A stretch of 64,000 nt of DNA, taken from assembly GCF_900112315.1 (NCBI RefSeq), contig NZ_FOLL01000006.1:62001-126000 (forward strand), given 5' to 3'. The stretch comes from Parapedobacter composti. Lineage in GTDB: Bacteria > Bacteroidota > Bacteroidia > Sphingobacteriales > Sphingobacteriaceae. Position numbers and translations under genes: made by a program. Positions 16,311 to 22,513 of the stretch are shown one piece after another (within the stretch, counting starts at the first letter, position 1; each line of letters begins with the position of its first letter). The notes beneath the pieces were generated by a model. The model was given only the letters and a program-made list of their open reading frames with translations. It did not search any database and was not told where the DNA came from.

Positions 16311-17168
16311 TTAGCTAAAGAGCGTGGCGGCACCGATTAACGCCGCATGTTCGCCCAGTTGGCTGATGTGGATATCGAAGCGGCCGAAGGCTTCCGCATT
16401 GAAGCTGCGGAACAGATCCCAGGCCCGGGAGATGTTGCCCCCGATAATGAATTTATCCGTCCCTTCCTTTTCGCTGAAAAAGGTGATGAACTGAAGCAGG
16501 TGGTGGCTGTATTCGGCCAGGATATCGTTGACAAACGCATGCTGTTCCTGCAACTGGAGCAGTTCGCGCAGTCCGGTAACCGATATGCCATGTGCCGCCG
16601 TGCGGCGCACAAACCAGCGGGTTACCAGGTGTTCCTCCATATTGCTGTCTAAGTAAGGGGTTTTCCACAAATCGGCATCCACGGCCTGTTCGCCTTTCTG
16701 CCAGGTGGCGCTTCCCAGGCCGGTGCCCAGCGTTATGCCAAGAACCTTTGCGTGCCCATTGTGTTTCCCGGCAAAGACTTCGCCTTGAAGAAAGGCTGCG
16801 GCGTCGTTAATGAACCGGATATTGGTTCCGGATATGCCGGTGCGTTCAGCCAGTTCCCTTCGGATATCCATCCCATAAAGATTGTCATATTTATCTTGAT
16901 CCCGCATGTGCGAGATGCCCCTTTCGTAATCAAACGGGCCCGGCATGGCGATGCCAATGGACGGCGAATCACCGGGATAATTACGGGCCACCGTCTGGAA
17001 TGGGGCAGCCCAGGAAAGTAAAATCGATTTAGCATCAGCGTGTGAATCAACATGATGCCGACAGATAGAAGACTCGACAACCTGCCACTGGTTGGTGTCT
17101 ACCAGGGCGGCGGTAATGTGGGTGCCACCGATATCGGAGGCAATGATATAACGGTTATTTTGTTGCAT
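16311..17168 (-). CDS. ROK family sugar kinase (glucokinase-like) without the zinc motif
   Basis: 285 residues from the ATG at 17168 ([17 protein letters not shown]), which overlaps the end of aroC by 14 bases; longer upstream starts run through aroC sequence and are rejected. DIGGTH is the phosphate-binding loop, [11 protein letters not shown] contains the catalytic Asp region and [10 protein letters not shown] the second phosphate loop. The CxCGxxGC zinc motif of most ROK proteins is absent, and there is no N-terminal HTH, so it is a kinase rather than a repressor. It would phosphorylate glucose or a related hexose. Its position as last gene of the aromatic operon is unexplained by pathway and may simply reflect co-transcription. 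Confidence 0.85.
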
Positions 17169-18255
17169 AAATTTGGTTTTTAAGCAGATGGTCAGTGATA
17201 ACAAGTGCGGCCATGGCTTCCACGATAATAACAGCCCGGGGTACCACGCAGGGGTCATGCCGTCCTTTACCGGTAATTTCGGTTTCTTCGCCCGATTCAT
17301 TGATGGTTTGCTGTGCACGCATAAGGGTTGCCACAGGTTTGAAAGCAACGCGGAAGGCTATTTCCATGCCGTTTGAGATGCCTCCTTGTATGCCGCCGGA
17401 GAAGTTGGTAAGTGTTTTAAGTTTGGCGGCATCCCGGTCGGGATTGACGAAGATGTCGTTATGTTCAGAACCCCGCATTTCTGACCCTGCAAAGCCCGAG
17501 CCGTATTCAAAGCCGTGTACCGCGTTAATGCCCATCATTGCTTTCGCCAGATCGGCATGTAGCTTATCAAATACCGGCTCACCCAGCCCCACGGGTACGT
17601 GCTGGATGATGGCACTGATGCGGCCGCCCACGGTATCGCCGGCCTTGCGGATGGAATCGATAAATGAGACCATTTCGTTGGCCGTGGCCGGATCGGCACA
17701 GCGCACAATATTGCTTTCGCGCATTTGCACCAGTTCGTCAATATCGTGTGAAGGCAGGTTAGGCGCTTCGATTTTGCCGACACCCGACACGTGGGCGAAA
17801 ATACGGATGCCGTATTGCGCCAAAAAGCTCTTCGCAACGGCACCTGCCGCTACCCGTGCAGCGGTTTCCCGTGCGGAAGAGCGCCCACCGCCGCGGTAAT
17901 CGCGGATGCCGTATTTCATCTGATACGTATAGTCGGCATGCGACGGACGGTACTTGTCTTTGATGTGTGTATAGTCTTTGGAACGCTGATCTTCATTAGG
18001 AATGAGCATTGCCAGGGGAGTTCCCGTGGTTTTGCCCTCAAATACGCCCGAAAGGATGCTGGCGGTATCGCTTTCTTTTCGCTGGGTGGTGATTTTTGAT
18101 TGCCCCGGCCGGCGCTTATCCAGCTCCGACTGGATGAACGATTCATCTACCGCGATATTTGGCGGACAACCGTCAATAATTACGCCGATAGCCTTGCCAT
18201 GAGACTCTCCGAACGTAGTGATGCGGAATACATCTCCAAACGAATTCCCTGCCAT
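17155..18255 (-). CDS. aroC: Chorismate synthase
   Basis: 366 residues with family signatures: [17 protein letters not shown] near the N-terminus, the [26 protein letters not shown]/substrate segment and a C-terminal DPCVVPRAV motif. It removes phosphate from EPSP with reduced FMN to give chorismate, the last common step of aromatic synthesis. It lies 73 bases after aroA on the same strand and overlaps the following ROK gene. Confidence 0.98.
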
Positions 18256-18328: not shown

Positions 18329-19591
18329 CTAAGATATAACAAATCCCTGTTGTTTCAAATGTTTCCAGAAATCGGGATACGATTTGCCCACAACATCAGG
18401 CTCATTAATTTGCACTTGCGGGAATACCATTCCGAGCGGGGCGAATGCCATGGCCATCCGGTGATCCTCGTAGGTGTCAATGACGAGATGTTCCGCATGG
18501 TAAACGCCTTCCGTTTGCAGATGGTAAACGGCCCCATCTTCAATGAGCGTGGCACCGAATTTCCCTAATTCCTTTTGCAAGGCCGCAATACGGTCGGTTT
18601 CTTTGATACGGAGCGTATGTAAGCCTGTGAAGGACGCATTACGTCTGAGCGCTGCTGCGCATACCACAACGGTCTGCGCAAGATCCGGACATTCCTTAAA
18701 GTCCAGTAAGGGGACGCTTTCAGGCATGTTACCAGCAACTTTTTGGATGCGTAATCCGCCGCGCTCAAATGAGGAGGCGACTCCGAAATGGCTCATGATA
18801 TCCACGATGGCAGTATCGCCCTGTAAGCTGCTCCTTTTCAGATTCGGCAGGAACAGATTGGCTTCATCAGCCAATGCCACCATGGCATACCAATAGGATG
18901 CCGCACTCCAGTCGGGCTCTACCGTAATGGTGCAGGGTTGCGCTTTTTGGGGGGCAATGTGGATAACGTCGCCTTGCCATTCATGGTGGATACCGGCTTC
19001 GGAAAGCATATCAAGCGTCATGGTGAGGTAAGGACGTGACGTAAGTTCACCCTCGATTTGCAGAGACAGTCCCCGTGGCAGTGCGGGCGCAACAAGCAGT
19101 AAAGCCGACAGGTATTGGCTGCTTACATTGCCCTGCACGCGCACCGTGTCGGTCTGCTGGTCAAAACCGCCCCGGATAGCCAGCGGGGGATAGCCCGGAG
19201 CCCCAGCATATTGGACACCGGCGCCCAGTGTACGGAGTGCATCCACCAGGATGCCGATGGGGCGCTGTTTCATCCGTTCACTTCCCGTAAGCAGGAAATT
19301 TCCCGGGGTGATGGCAAGGTAAGCCGTAAGGAAACGCATGGCCGTGCCCGCCGGCCCCACATCAATGGTGGTTGGGGCTTCGGCCGACGCAGCGGTCACC
19401 GCCGCGGCTTCCAGGGCTCCGTGCAGCGTAATTGTGTCGTCTGCGGACGACAAATTAGCGATGTTCACGTGGTCGCCCCCCAGTGCCTGGATGATAAGGG
19501 CCCGGTTGCTTTCACTTTTTGAGCCAGTGAGCGCTACCGTGCCCGACAGCAATTTGGACGGATGCGTAAGCTTGATGGCGTCTGTACCCAT
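18329..19591 (-). CDS. aroA: EPSP synthase (3-phosphoshikimate 1-carboxyvinyltransferase)
   Basis: 420 residues. It joins shikimate-3-phosphate with phosphoenolpyruvate. Visible motifs are LTGSKSESNRALI at the N-terminus, VGPAGTAMRFLTAYLA (the usual LGNAGTAMR is altered to VGPAGTAMR), RIKETDRIAAL and the C-terminal DTYEDHRMAMAFAPLG. The start ATG directly abuts the stop of the DAHP synthase gene, so translation is probably coupled. Confidence 0.98.
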   Translation of the reverse strand: MGTDAIKLTHPSKLLSGTVALTGSKSESNRALIIQALGGDHVNIANLSSADDTITLHGALEAAAVTAASAEAPTTIDVGPAGTAMRFLTAYLAITPGNFLLTGSERMKQRPIGILVDALRTLGAGVQYAGAPGYPPLAIRGGFDQQTDTVRVQGNVSSQYLSALLLVAPALPRGLSLQIEGELTSRPYLTMTLDMLSEAGIHHEWQGDVIHIAPQKAQPCTITVEPDWSAASYWYAMVALADEANLFLPNLKRSSLQGDTAIVDIMSHFGVASSFERGGLRIQKVAGNMPESVPLLDFKECPDLAQTVVVCAAALRRNASFTGLHTLRIKETDRIAALQKELGKFGATLIEDGAVYHLQTEGVYHAEHLVIDTYEDHRMAMAFAPLGMVFPQVQINEPDVVGKSYPDFWKHLKQQGFVIS

Positions 19592-20698
19592 TTAGGCCTC
19601 CGCTACCGGTTTGGTGTTCATAATCTCGTTTTGCTTACGGATGGATTCGTTATGAATCAGTTCCAGCAGCTTCACGGTGAATTCTTTATCCAATTTGAGC
19701 GCTTGCGCTACGTTGCTGCGCTTCTGGATGATCTCATCCCAGCGGCTAACCTGCAGGATAGTCACGTTGTTATCGCGTTTGTATTCGCCGATTTTTTCAA
19801 CGATTTTCATGCGGTCGCTCAATATTTTGATAATCTGGTCGTCCAGCTTATCGATATCTTTGCGCAGTTGGGCCAGCTTGTCTTCGAAGACCGGATCATC
19901 CGACTTGGCATGGCGAAGGGCTAAGTTAGCGAGCAGGTCAGATAACGCCTGCGGGGTTACCTGCTGTTTGGCATCGGTCCACGCCACGGAAGGATCGATA
20001 TGCGATTCCACGATGAGGCCTTGCATGTCCATGTCAAACGCCTTTTGCGCAATGTAGGGAATGAGTTCACGGTTGCCGCAGATGTGGCTGGGATCATTGA
20101 TTACAGGCAGGTCTGGCACCATGGTTTTCAACTGGATGGCGATATCCCACATCGGCTCATTGCGGAAGGCTGTTTTTTCGTAAGAGGAGAAACCGCGGTG
20201 GATGGCGGCCAGTTTCTTGACGCCGGCACGGTTGATACGCTCCAGGGCACCCAGCCAGAGCGAAAGATCAGGGTTAACAGGGTTTTTAACCAGTACCGGA
20301 ACGTCCACGCCTTTCAGCGCATCGGCAATCTCCTGTACGGTGAAGGGGTTAGCCGTTGAACGTGCGCCGATCCAAAGGATATCAACCCCCGCAGCCAGCG
20401 CTTCTTCCACGTGCTTGGCGGTAGCTACTTCCGTGGTGATGGGCAGTCCGGTTTCTTCCTTAGCCCGGCGCAGCCATTGAAGGCCGATGCTGCCAATGCC
20501 CTCGAATTCACCCGGACGGGTACGGGGCTTCCAGATACCTGCGCGCAGCACGTTCACCCTGCCCGTATTGGCTAACAGGTGGGCGGTAGCTAATACCTGT
20601 TCTTCCGTCTCCGCACTGCATGGCCCGGCAATAATTAACGGCGCATCGCCTGTGTCGAACCACGATTTCAAAGGAACAATGTCTAATGTCTGTTTCAT
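19592..20698 (-). CDS. Bifunctional DAHP synthase / chorismate mutase
   Basis: 368 residues. Residues 1-260 form a type I-beta DAHP synthase TIM barrel (IIAGPCSAETEEQV, LRAGIWKPRTRPGEFEG, the metal-site Cys and the NDPSHICGNR segment). Residues 275-355 form an AroQ-type chorismate mutase (LRKDIDKLDDQIIKILSDRMKIVEKIGEYKR). It makes the first shikimate-pathway intermediate and also converts chorismate to prephenate; the mutase domain commonly acts as the feedback-sensing part in such fusions. It starts 128 bases after pheA. No promoter or terminator is evident in that gap, so it is probably in the pheA transcript. Confidence 0.96.
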   Translation of the reverse strand: MKQTLDIVPLKSWFDTGDAPLIIAGPCSAETEEQVLATAHLLANTGRVNVLRAGIWKPRTRPGEFEGIGSIGLQWLRRAKEETGLPITTEVATAKHVEEALAAGVDILWIGARSTANPFTVQEIADALKGVDVPVLVKNPVNPDLSLWLGALERINRAGVKKLAAIHRGFSSYEKTAFRNEPMWDIAIQLKTMVPDLPVINDPSHICGNRELIPYIAQKAFDMDMQGLIVESHIDPSVAWTDAKQQVTPQALSDLLANLALRHAKSDDPVFEDKLAQLRKDIDKLDDQIIKILSDRMKIVEKIGEYKRDNNVTILQVSRWDEIIQKRSNVAQALKLDKEFTVKLLELIHNESIRKQNEIMNTKPVAEA

Positions 20699-20826: not shown

Positions 20827-21651
20827 TTATACCTTTTCATTCTTTATGTATTCGCCCATGATACTGAAGTTGCTGGTATGCTTCAGTACCCGTCGTATAG
20901 CCGCATCGTAATCGGCCTGGTTTTTCCATTCAACATCTACATAAAAATCGTATTCGTTGCGCTTACCCAGTACCGGCATGGATTGAATCTTCGTGAGGTT
21001 AATCTGCTGCTCAGCGAAGCATTGCAATACCGTGGATAGTGAGCCCACCCCATTGCCGGTCTGGAAAGACAACGAAGCCTTGTTTACCTTCGCCTTTTCT
21101 TCCGATTGGGTAGACAGGATGAGAAAGCGTGTGTAATTCTTTTTGTTGGTCTCGATGCGACGTTCCAGAATCTCCAGGCCATAGAGCTTGGCCGCGAGTT
21201 GCGGAGCGATGGCTGCAGTATCTTTGAGTTGCTGCTCGCTTACCTTTTTGGCACTGCCCGCGGTATCCTCACCCTCCGTCACCTGGAACTGCGGATTCTC
21301 TTCGAGGAAATCGTTGCATTGCTGCAGCGCAATAGGGTGCGACTCGACAAACCTGATATCTTGCAGGGTAACCCCCGGTAATGCCATCAGATGCAGTTTA
21401 ATATGGAGGTAAACTTCGCCAACGATGGGGAAACGGTAATCGCGGAGCAGGTTATAGTTGGGGAGGAGGCTGCCCGCGATGGAGTTTTCAATGGCCATGA
21501 CGATGTAGTTGACTTTACCCTGTTTTAACAGTTCACACGTCTTCTTGAACGATTCACACTCCACGGTTTCAATCTGTTCACCGAAATACTTGTAGGCCGC
21601 TTCTTCGTGGAACGAACCCTTGATACCCTGTATGGCTACTTTTAGCTGCAT
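20827..21651 (-). CDS. pheA: Prephenate dehydratase with ACT domain
   Basis: 274 residues: a prephenate dehydratase domain (1-180) with the catalytic NYTRFLIL (Thr-Arg-Phe) motif and a C-terminal ACT domain (about 195-274). It converts prephenate to phenylpyruvate. In Escherichia coli PheA, phenylalanine binds the ACT motifs GALV and ESRP; the corresponding stretches here read GSLS and IQSMP, so allosteric inhibition may differ. It is the first gene of the aromatic operon and has a putative phenylalanine attenuator in its 5' leader. The usual Bacteroidota neighbours, an aminotransferase and prephenate dehydrogenase (tyrA), are missing between it and the DAHP synthase gene. Confidence 0.97.
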   Translation of the reverse strand: MQLKVAIQGIKGSFHEEAAYKYFGEQIETVECESFKKTCELLKQGKVNYIVMAIENSIAGSLLPNYNLLRDYRFPIVGEVYLHIKLHLMALPGVTLQDIRFVESHPIALQQCNDFLEENPQFQVTEGEDTAGSAKKVSEQQLKDTAAIAPQLAAKLYGLEILERRIETNKKNYTRFLILSTQSEEKAKVNKASLSFQTGNGVGSLSTVLQCFAEQQINLTKIQSMPVLGKRNEYDFYVDVEWKNQADYDAAIRRVLKHTSNFSIMGEYIKNEKV

Positions 21652-21669: not shown

Positions 21670-21704
21670 AATAAAAAAGTCCCGGCTTTTCTTGCCGGGA
21701 CTTT
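21670..21704 (-). terminator. Attenuator terminator in the pheA leader
   Basis: On the minus strand AAAGTCCCGGC, loop AAGAAAA, GCCGGGACTTT forms a perfect 11-base stem, followed by more T residues (run of six including the arm, then ATT). It ends only about 20 bases before the pheA ATG, so it must regulate entry into pheA rather than end an upstream gene; the nearest upstream gene is divergent. Confidence 0.88.
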
Positions 21705-21750
21705 ACATTTATATCGTTTACGCTATCAATGCATATCAATCCCGGCTTTT
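21694..21750 (-). promoter_or_regulatory. Antiterminator pairing region of the pheA attenuator
   Basis: AAAAGCCGGGA at 21750-21740 is an exact copy of the sequence around the 3' arm of the terminator. Its GCCGGGATT part can pair with AAGTCCCGGC of the terminator 5' arm (about nine pairs including one G-U), which would prevent terminator formation. The segment overlaps the last codons of the leader peptide, so a ribosome reaching the stop codon would cover it, while one stalled at the phenylalanine codons would leave it free. Confidence 0.75.
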
Positions 21751-21804
21751 ACCGCTAAAGTAAAAGAATCCAAAAAATCGATATGCGTTGCGCTGTGCTA
21801 TCAT
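21736..21804 (-). CDS. Phenylalanine-rich leader peptide of the pheA operon
   Basis: A 22-codon open frame (ATG at 21804, TGA at 21738-21736) between the promoter and the terminator. Its second half reads RFFGFFYFSGKSRD: five Phe (codons 10, 11, 13, 14, 16) and two Tyr in nine residues counting Tyr8. This is the classic design of ribosome-mediated attenuation, in which scarcity of charged tRNA-Phe stalls the ribosome and lets transcription continue into pheA. The position relative to the pairing segments fits the model. It is inferred from sequence only; no ribosome data are available. Confidence 0.85.
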   Translation of the reverse strand: MIAQRNAYRFFGFFYFSGKSRD

Positions 21805-21822
21805 CTCTTTGATTTGATGTGC

Positions 21823-21852
21823 CAAATGTACGCAAGTTTTTTTTATTGTCAA
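21823..21852 (-). promoter_or_regulatory. Promoter of the pheA leader and operon
   Basis: On the minus strand TTG (21852-21850), a 19-base spacer and TACATTTG (21830-21823) fit the Bacteroidota -33/-7 promoter. Transcription would start near 21819, about 15 bases before the leader peptide ATG. Confidence 0.8.
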
Positions 21853-22015: not shown

Positions 22016-22513
22016 ATGAAAACGATGTTGATTTCAGCGATAGCAGGGATGGTGATGTCCACTGCTTTCGCACAGGAAAACGGAACCGGAGTGACCGGCA
22101 AAGCAAACACCGCAACCCAGGCCGGAGTTGGTAAGGGAACAACGGCGGTAACTCATGGTATGCAGGGAGAAGCAAAAGCCGGCATAGCGTTGGCCGCACC
22201 GAAGGTGGCAGCGGAAGCCAACGGCAATTCGGTAATTCAGGTAGGCGGAGACATCCAAGAGCTGGCTGTAATGAGCGGAGATGTGATTGGCGATGTGGCC
22301 ATCGCTAACGAGCTGGAGGTATTGCAGCATGCAGAAACGATAAGACTGCAGGCAACGGCGGTTCCGCGTGCGGATGTGGGAAGTGCGGTGGCGGTTCCTG
22401 ACGTGGCAGCCAAGGTGAAGGCGACTGTTAACGCTGTTACGGGCATCAACGTGAAGCCGGTTCCGGTATCGGCAAAAGTTAATATCAGGAACGGCCTGCG
22501 TGTAAAACTTTAA
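22016..22513 (+). CDS. Small exported protein of unknown function
   Basis: 165 residues with a clear signal peptide (MKTMLISAIAGMVMSTAFAQ, cleavage after AFA likely). The mature part is rich in Gly, Ala and Val, with no Cys and no motif I recognise. The C-terminus is basic and beta-prone, ending KVNIRNGLRVKL. The next gene encodes another small exported protein with a similar tail (ALPVKIKL). The gene lies directly behind the 11-base repeats and upstream of the two-component genes, so it is a plausible target of that system. No function is proposed. Confidence 0.75.
   Translation: MKTMLISAIAGMVMSTAFAQENGTGVTGKANTATQAGVGKGTTAVTHGMQGEAKAGIALAAPKVAAEANGNSVIQVGGDIQELAVMSGDVIGDVAIANELEVLQHAETIRLQATAVPRADVGSAVAVPDVAAKVKATVNAVTGINVKPVPVSAKVNIRNGLRVKL

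Follow-up and report, generated by a model that had tools for sequence, protein, structure and literature searches.

In the window (the whole stretch of 64,000 nucleotides of Parapedobacter composti DNA that was analyzed), the pheA-aroG/CM-aroA-aroC operon is preceded by a leader region that, judged from sequence, is highly likely to be a ribosome-mediated transcription attenuator of the classical type. Its anatomy, the conservation of its coding frame, the covariation of three helices, and the conserved spacing and promoter were all observed in the window and its relatives (Table 1). Ribosome stalling during phenylalanine shortage would very probably switch the operon on by a mechanism that is classical and barely documented in Bacteroidia. 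An equivalent device lies before pheA in most of the Bacteroidia genomes examined, well beyond the single genome described in the earlier note.

Table 1. Features of the pheA leader and operon (window coordinates)
Feature	Coordinates	Strand	Details	Basis
Bacteroidota-type promoter	21823..21852	-	TTG-N19-TACATTTG: TTG 21852-21850, 19-nt spacer, TACATTTG 21830-21823	Sequence; coordinates checked
Leader peptide ORF	21736..21804	-	22 codons, MIAQRNAYRFFGFFYFSGKSRD then stop; ATG 21804, TGA 21736	
Segments 1 and 2, protector/pause-type hairpin	21731..21786	-	21786-21759 with 21753-21731	MFE structure
Segment 2, antiterminator strand	21738..21750	-	AAAAGCCGGGATT; copy of terminator 3' arm in last leader codons	
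Segment 3, terminator 5' arm	21694..21704	-	AAAGTCCCGGC; partner of segment 2 or segment 4	
Segment 4, terminator 3' arm and T-run	21670..21686	-	GCCGGGACTTT (21686-21676), then TTTATT	
pheA, prephenate dehydratase with ACT domain	20827..21651	-	ATG 21651	Pfam PF00800, E 6e-59
aroG-CM, DAHP synthase-chorismate mutase fusion	19592..20698	-		Pfam PF00793 and PF01817; conserved gene order
aroA, EPSP synthase	18329..19591	-		Pfam PF00275
aroC, chorismate synthase	17155..18255	-		Pfam PF01264

The promoter that had been proposed upstream of the leader was recovered. Its -7 element (TAnnTTTG) was conserved, recurring in 64 of the 65 leaders from Sphingobacteriaceae and in most cases lying 16 to 18 nt 5' of the leader start codon. 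The ORF that follows contains Phe at codons 10, 11, 13, 14, and 16 and Tyr at codons 8 and 15. The earlier note had thus counted five Phe and two Tyr codons among 22 correctly, but had placed both Tyr codons in the second half of the peptide, which Tyr 8 precedes. No strong Shine-Dalgarno sequence was seen 5' of the leader ATG; weak or absent Shine-Dalgarno sequences are usual in Bacteroidota. In a sample of Sphingobacteriaceae with a pheA match in 381 of 400 genomes, a leader and a terminator were present 5' of pheA in all 61 distinct upstream regions, which came from many genera and encoded peptides with typical parts such as NNAYWFFGFFYFSSKSRD, TAAYWFFGYFYFSSKGRD, TTYWFGYFYYFSKSRD, and TTYFYFGFFYFNNKSRD. 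Alignment of 49 relatives showed that the codons corresponding to 13 to 16 nearly always specify Phe or Tyr (conserved core, FFYF/YFYF), while third bases vary and Phe and Tyr replace each other. Conservation of the Phe-rich frame, suggested earlier as a check, was therefore borne out by both the upstream regions and the alignment. In general, the aromatic leaders were rich in Tyr besides Phe and often also contained Trp. The short ORF thus appears to carry an in-frame run of regulatory codons for the products of the pathway.

Two structural elements described previously were both confirmed from the sequence: the copied segment, which lies inside the final codons of the leader, and the perfect 11-base terminator with its T-run. 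The copy, AAAAGCCGGGA, lies at 21750-21740 (minus strand), and the terminator consists of 11 perfect base pairs (7 of them G-C) closing a 7-nt loop, 24 nt 5' of pheA. Overlooked at that stage was a further hairpin (1:2), with the Tyr and Phe codons on one side and, on the other, the copied segment plus the nucleotides that follow it. The leader RNA folded with -47.0 kcal/mol, compared to -28.5 kcal/mol for shuffled sequences (z = -5.0; 0 of 200), and the 2:3 duplex in the window was estimated at -16.8 kcal/mol.

Covariation was measured in the 49 aligned leaders and compared with 500 shuffles, which leave relatedness in, and with slid controls, which remove it. The terminator (3:4) was paired in 95.7% of cells, with two-sided changes in 9 of 11 pairs; corresponding values were 91.3% and 5 of 9 pairs for the antiterminator (2:3) and 84.7% and 11 of 25 pairs for hairpin 1:2. 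For each helix, both the percentage paired and the covariation score exceeded those of all 500 shuffles, and the slid controls were paired in only 16 to 65% of cells. Hairpin 1:2 is the least well supported of the three, since its pair and pair-type counts were barely above those of the shuffles (matched by 44 and 49 of 500, respectively). It nevertheless includes a Tyr codon whose wobble base (TAC/TAT) covaries with its partner (columns 51-61; C-G in 28 leaders, U-A in 20), as well as a pair that is A-U in 19 and G-C in 18 leaders (columns 19-82). The covarying stems and alternative pairings that the earlier note had wished to see in relatives were hence found for all three helices. An intrinsic terminator lies between leader and pheA, together with an antiterminator that excludes it and shows compensatory changes; segment 3 keeps two competing partners and therefore bears the mark of an attenuator.

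From this arrangement, we infer that the leader is translated, that ribosomes stall on it, that transcription responds, and that the genes further along the operon are controlled in this way. The transcript would begin directly 3' of TACATTTG, and the leader ORF would be translated during its synthesis. If Phe-tRNA (or Tyr-tRNA) were scarce, the ribosome would stall at codons 10 to 16 and open the 1:2 hairpin, freeing segment 2 for segment 3; 2:3 pairing would then block the terminator, and RNA polymerase would continue into pheA. With ample charged tRNA, the ribosome would instead reach the UGA and mask segment 2, such that the 3:4 terminator would form. The last aromatic codon is followed by the start of segment 2 at a distance of 12 nt in the window; in relatives, this distance is mostly 9 to 17 nt. 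Because of this spacing, a stalled ribosome is expected to free segment 2 in the window and a finishing ribosome to cover it; a minority of relatives deviate. The position of the stop codon relative to segment 2 varies by lineage, from tens of bases after it to several before it.

Using a crude ribosome mask on transcripts ending at segment 3, a mean of 7.6 predicted 2:3 pairs was obtained in 132 leaders with a stalled ribosome versus 2.2 with the ribosome at the stop codon (9.5 versus 2.4 in the window leader). A minority, including L090, L097, L106, L115, and L152, kept 2:3 even with the mask at the stop codon. At equilibrium, the truncated transcript was predicted to favor 2:3 even when free of ribosomes (9.2 pairs in the window; mean, 6.1), and hairpin 1:2 would therefore protect kinetically, by forming first, or only cause a pause.

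The gene order pheA-aroG/CM-aroA-aroC was kept in named Sphingobacteriaceae loci of sufficient length. The nearest named relatives of pheA all belonged to Parapedobacter (82 to 91% identical), and the match of pheA to the ACT domain was weak, falling under Pfam's cutoff. No Bacteroidota-type promoter motif was found in the operon's two gaps, so a single operon transcript is likely. The sequence data thereby support control by the leader of pheA together with the DAHP synthase-chorismate mutase, aroA, and aroC genes.

Outside Sphingobacteriaceae, an aromatic leader with a terminator was also present 5' of pheA in Cyclobacteriaceae, Bacteroidales, and other sampled families of Bacteroidia. A finder for aromatic leaders recovered one in 116 of 168 distinct upstream regions (69%) versus 0.7% of dinucleotide shuffles, which excludes chance; 116 is a minimum, as leaders such as L153 and L161 just miss the threshold. 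Moreover, a covariance model built from the 49 leaders detected pheA leaders in genomes outside the training set. By contrast, the aromatic leader was absent before all 20 outgroup pheA genes, which came from other classes of the phylum, and a protein tree separated these leaderless outgroup genes from Bacteroidia-type pheA, most with a leader, by a fully supported split. Three genomes assigned to other classes (L116, L118, and L120) differed from the rest of their families in having a leader and a pheA of the Bacteroidia type, reflecting either transfer of gene and attenuator or contaminating contigs. Bacteroidota-like pheA genes were further seen on metagenome-assembled contigs labeled Legionellaceae and Oligoflexia (L011 and L061; that of L011 is nearly identical to Daejeonella's), labels that are probably binning errors.

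The attenuator might instead sense something other than the ribosome, as a riboswitch, a T-box, or the target of an RNA-binding protein, the ORF being a by-product of a U-rich strand. The leader strand is indeed U-rich, and conserved helices on their own would fit any attenuator; however, a by-product would not be expected to show the coding constraint seen here, with Phe and Tyr codons retained through third-base variation and mutual swaps, nor to be as rare in shuffles of equal dinucleotide content as the finder indicated. Between families the leader sequence diverges, with only the aromatic codons surviving, and no Rfam riboswitch or T-box matched at the gathering score or up to an E value of 10. 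We consider such a sensor very unlikely. Even less can be said for a constitutive terminator that ends an upstream transcript and is accompanied by an unrelated short ORF, with the pheA promoter below it. A promoter scan did return a weak sigma-70-like match at 21729-21700, but that sequence is no Bacteroidota-type motif and shares bases with the terminator arm, whereas the sole TTG-N19-TAnnTTTG in this region is conserved and lies 5' of the leader. The upstream neighbor (ORF 22016-22513, plus strand) is divergent, and three mutually exclusive helices covary, all of which makes a constitutive terminator extremely improbable.

Enterobacterial pheA and pheST leaders consist of a Phe-rich peptide, alternative 1:2, 2:3, and 3:4 helices, and a terminator before the gene. 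The peptide, the three helices, and the terminator are common to these leaders (RF01859) and the Bacteroidia leader; in contrast to them, the latter is also rich in Tyr and often contains Trp, has a Bacteroidota promoter, and precedes a pheA-aroG/CM-aroA-aroC or pheA-tyrA-aroG/CM operon. True homology by horizontal transfer might be read from a full-length match of the window to the Rfam Phe_leader model, yet this match was weak (21.9 bits, E 0.17), far under the gathering cutoff of 55 bits, and the unrelated AgrB and rnk_pseudo models outscored Phe_leader on the same stretch. The leader thus falls outside that family, and the earlier view that it is built from unrelated sequence holds within the Rfam comparison. 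The leader-bearing pheA genes instead group in a single clade that contains the class Bacteroidia; this pattern suggests that they have long been inherited vertically and leaves horizontal acquisition with hardly any plausibility.

Bacteroidia without a leader at pheA were mostly Prolixibacteraceae, in which pheA stands apart from the other operon genes. In all eight of the Prolixibacteraceae genomes examined for it, a leader and a terminator were found 5' of the gene preceding aroG/CM; the start of its product (MKVTIIGLGLIG-like) and its position suggest that this gene is tyrA. Since the leader here precedes the putative tyrA-aroG/CM while pheA is separate, the attenuator appears to follow the operon. 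The Prolixibacteraceae observations comprise L222 to L229 and L060; the separate pheA mostly had no leader. Genome JC049 (L060 and L229) had leaders at both sites, nearly Phe-only at pheA and with Phe and Tyr at the other. The proportion of Tyr in leaders did not track whether the operon includes tyrA, a relationship rejected by shares of 0.55 in Sphingobacteriaceae outside Parapedobacter (whose observed operons lack tyrA), 0.47 with tyrA in the operon, and 0.53 where tyrA leads it.

Taken as a whole, the ribosome-mediated attenuator is likely ancient: it would stem from the ancestor of Bacteroidia, have been inherited vertically with the pheA/tyrA/aroG-CM operon, and have been kept by the operon when pheA separated. 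As part of the same reading, it would belong to a set of Phe, Trp, Thr, and probably His leaders that makes leader-peptide attenuation standard in the phylum, independent of proteobacterial leaders. Attenuators of trp, his, thr, and ilv operons in Proteobacteria and Actinobacteria follow the same logic in different phyla. A survey from 2010 stated that leader peptides were unknown outside these two phyla before its own his leaders in Bacilli (PMC2965389). For Flavobacterium psychrophilum, strong clues to leader-peptide attenuation upstream of amino acid operons were reported in 2021 in the main text of PMC9723704, together with a structured element 5' of pheA, conserved in Flavobacteriaceae and without an Rfam match. 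This element concerns the same phylum and gene as the Parapedobacter leader; the main text, however, gives no pheA peptide, pairings, covariation, or mechanism, and its range ends at Flavobacteriaceae. In the literature searched, we found no other account of Phe leaders from Bacteroidota and none of a class-wide range in Bacteroidia, although a wider survey cited in PMC4833913 may include predictions for Bacteroidetes (Lopatovskaya et al. 2010, Mol Biol 44:128).

The class-wide attenuator, with its defined helices and codons, offers a testable rule for aromatic amino acid synthesis in Bacteroidota. This phylum dominates the human gut and many soils, and to our knowledge the control of its amino acid genes has been little studied. 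The pheA leader also represents a family missing from Rfam and exemplifies an attenuator tied to an operon rather than to a gene. Together with the Thr and Trp leaders of the same genome, the Phe leader makes a strong case that a distant phylum has attenuators built on the same logic.

Several further candidate leaders were observed. The idea that the genome holds another strong Phe leader was rejected, as the covariance model gave one strong match per genome; its weaker matches mostly look like background. No leader was found in the upstream regions of ilvD, which is not the first gene. Before hisG of the same genome lies a His-rich ORF, MIAFIHHIHFHHRPCGDY (L215; G000:C17, reverse), with no clear intrinsic terminator on the gene's strand between the two. 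A Trp-rich leader, MLIMKFRIDSWWWLGKCNVGSVGAITYS (with SWWWLG), precedes a chorismate-binding, trpE-like gene and is followed by a terminator, CCCGAC..GTCGGGCTTTTTT (L217; G000:C38, reverse). Also in the same genome, a Thr-rich ORF with a GTG start, VNRTTTITTSTTTGSNARRK, and a hairpin lie before thrA (L274; G000:C33:62000-63800, reverse). Its composition resembles that of E. coli thrL, and GGAGGAAG, located in the final codons of the ORF, can base-pair with the 5' arm of the hairpin in an antiterminator-like manner. In a relative, a Thr/Ile leader, MIFNTSIITTIIITTGINQRG, with a terminator was detected by the Phe covariance model before an aspartokinase-type thrA (L265; G013:C2:603200-605200, reverse).
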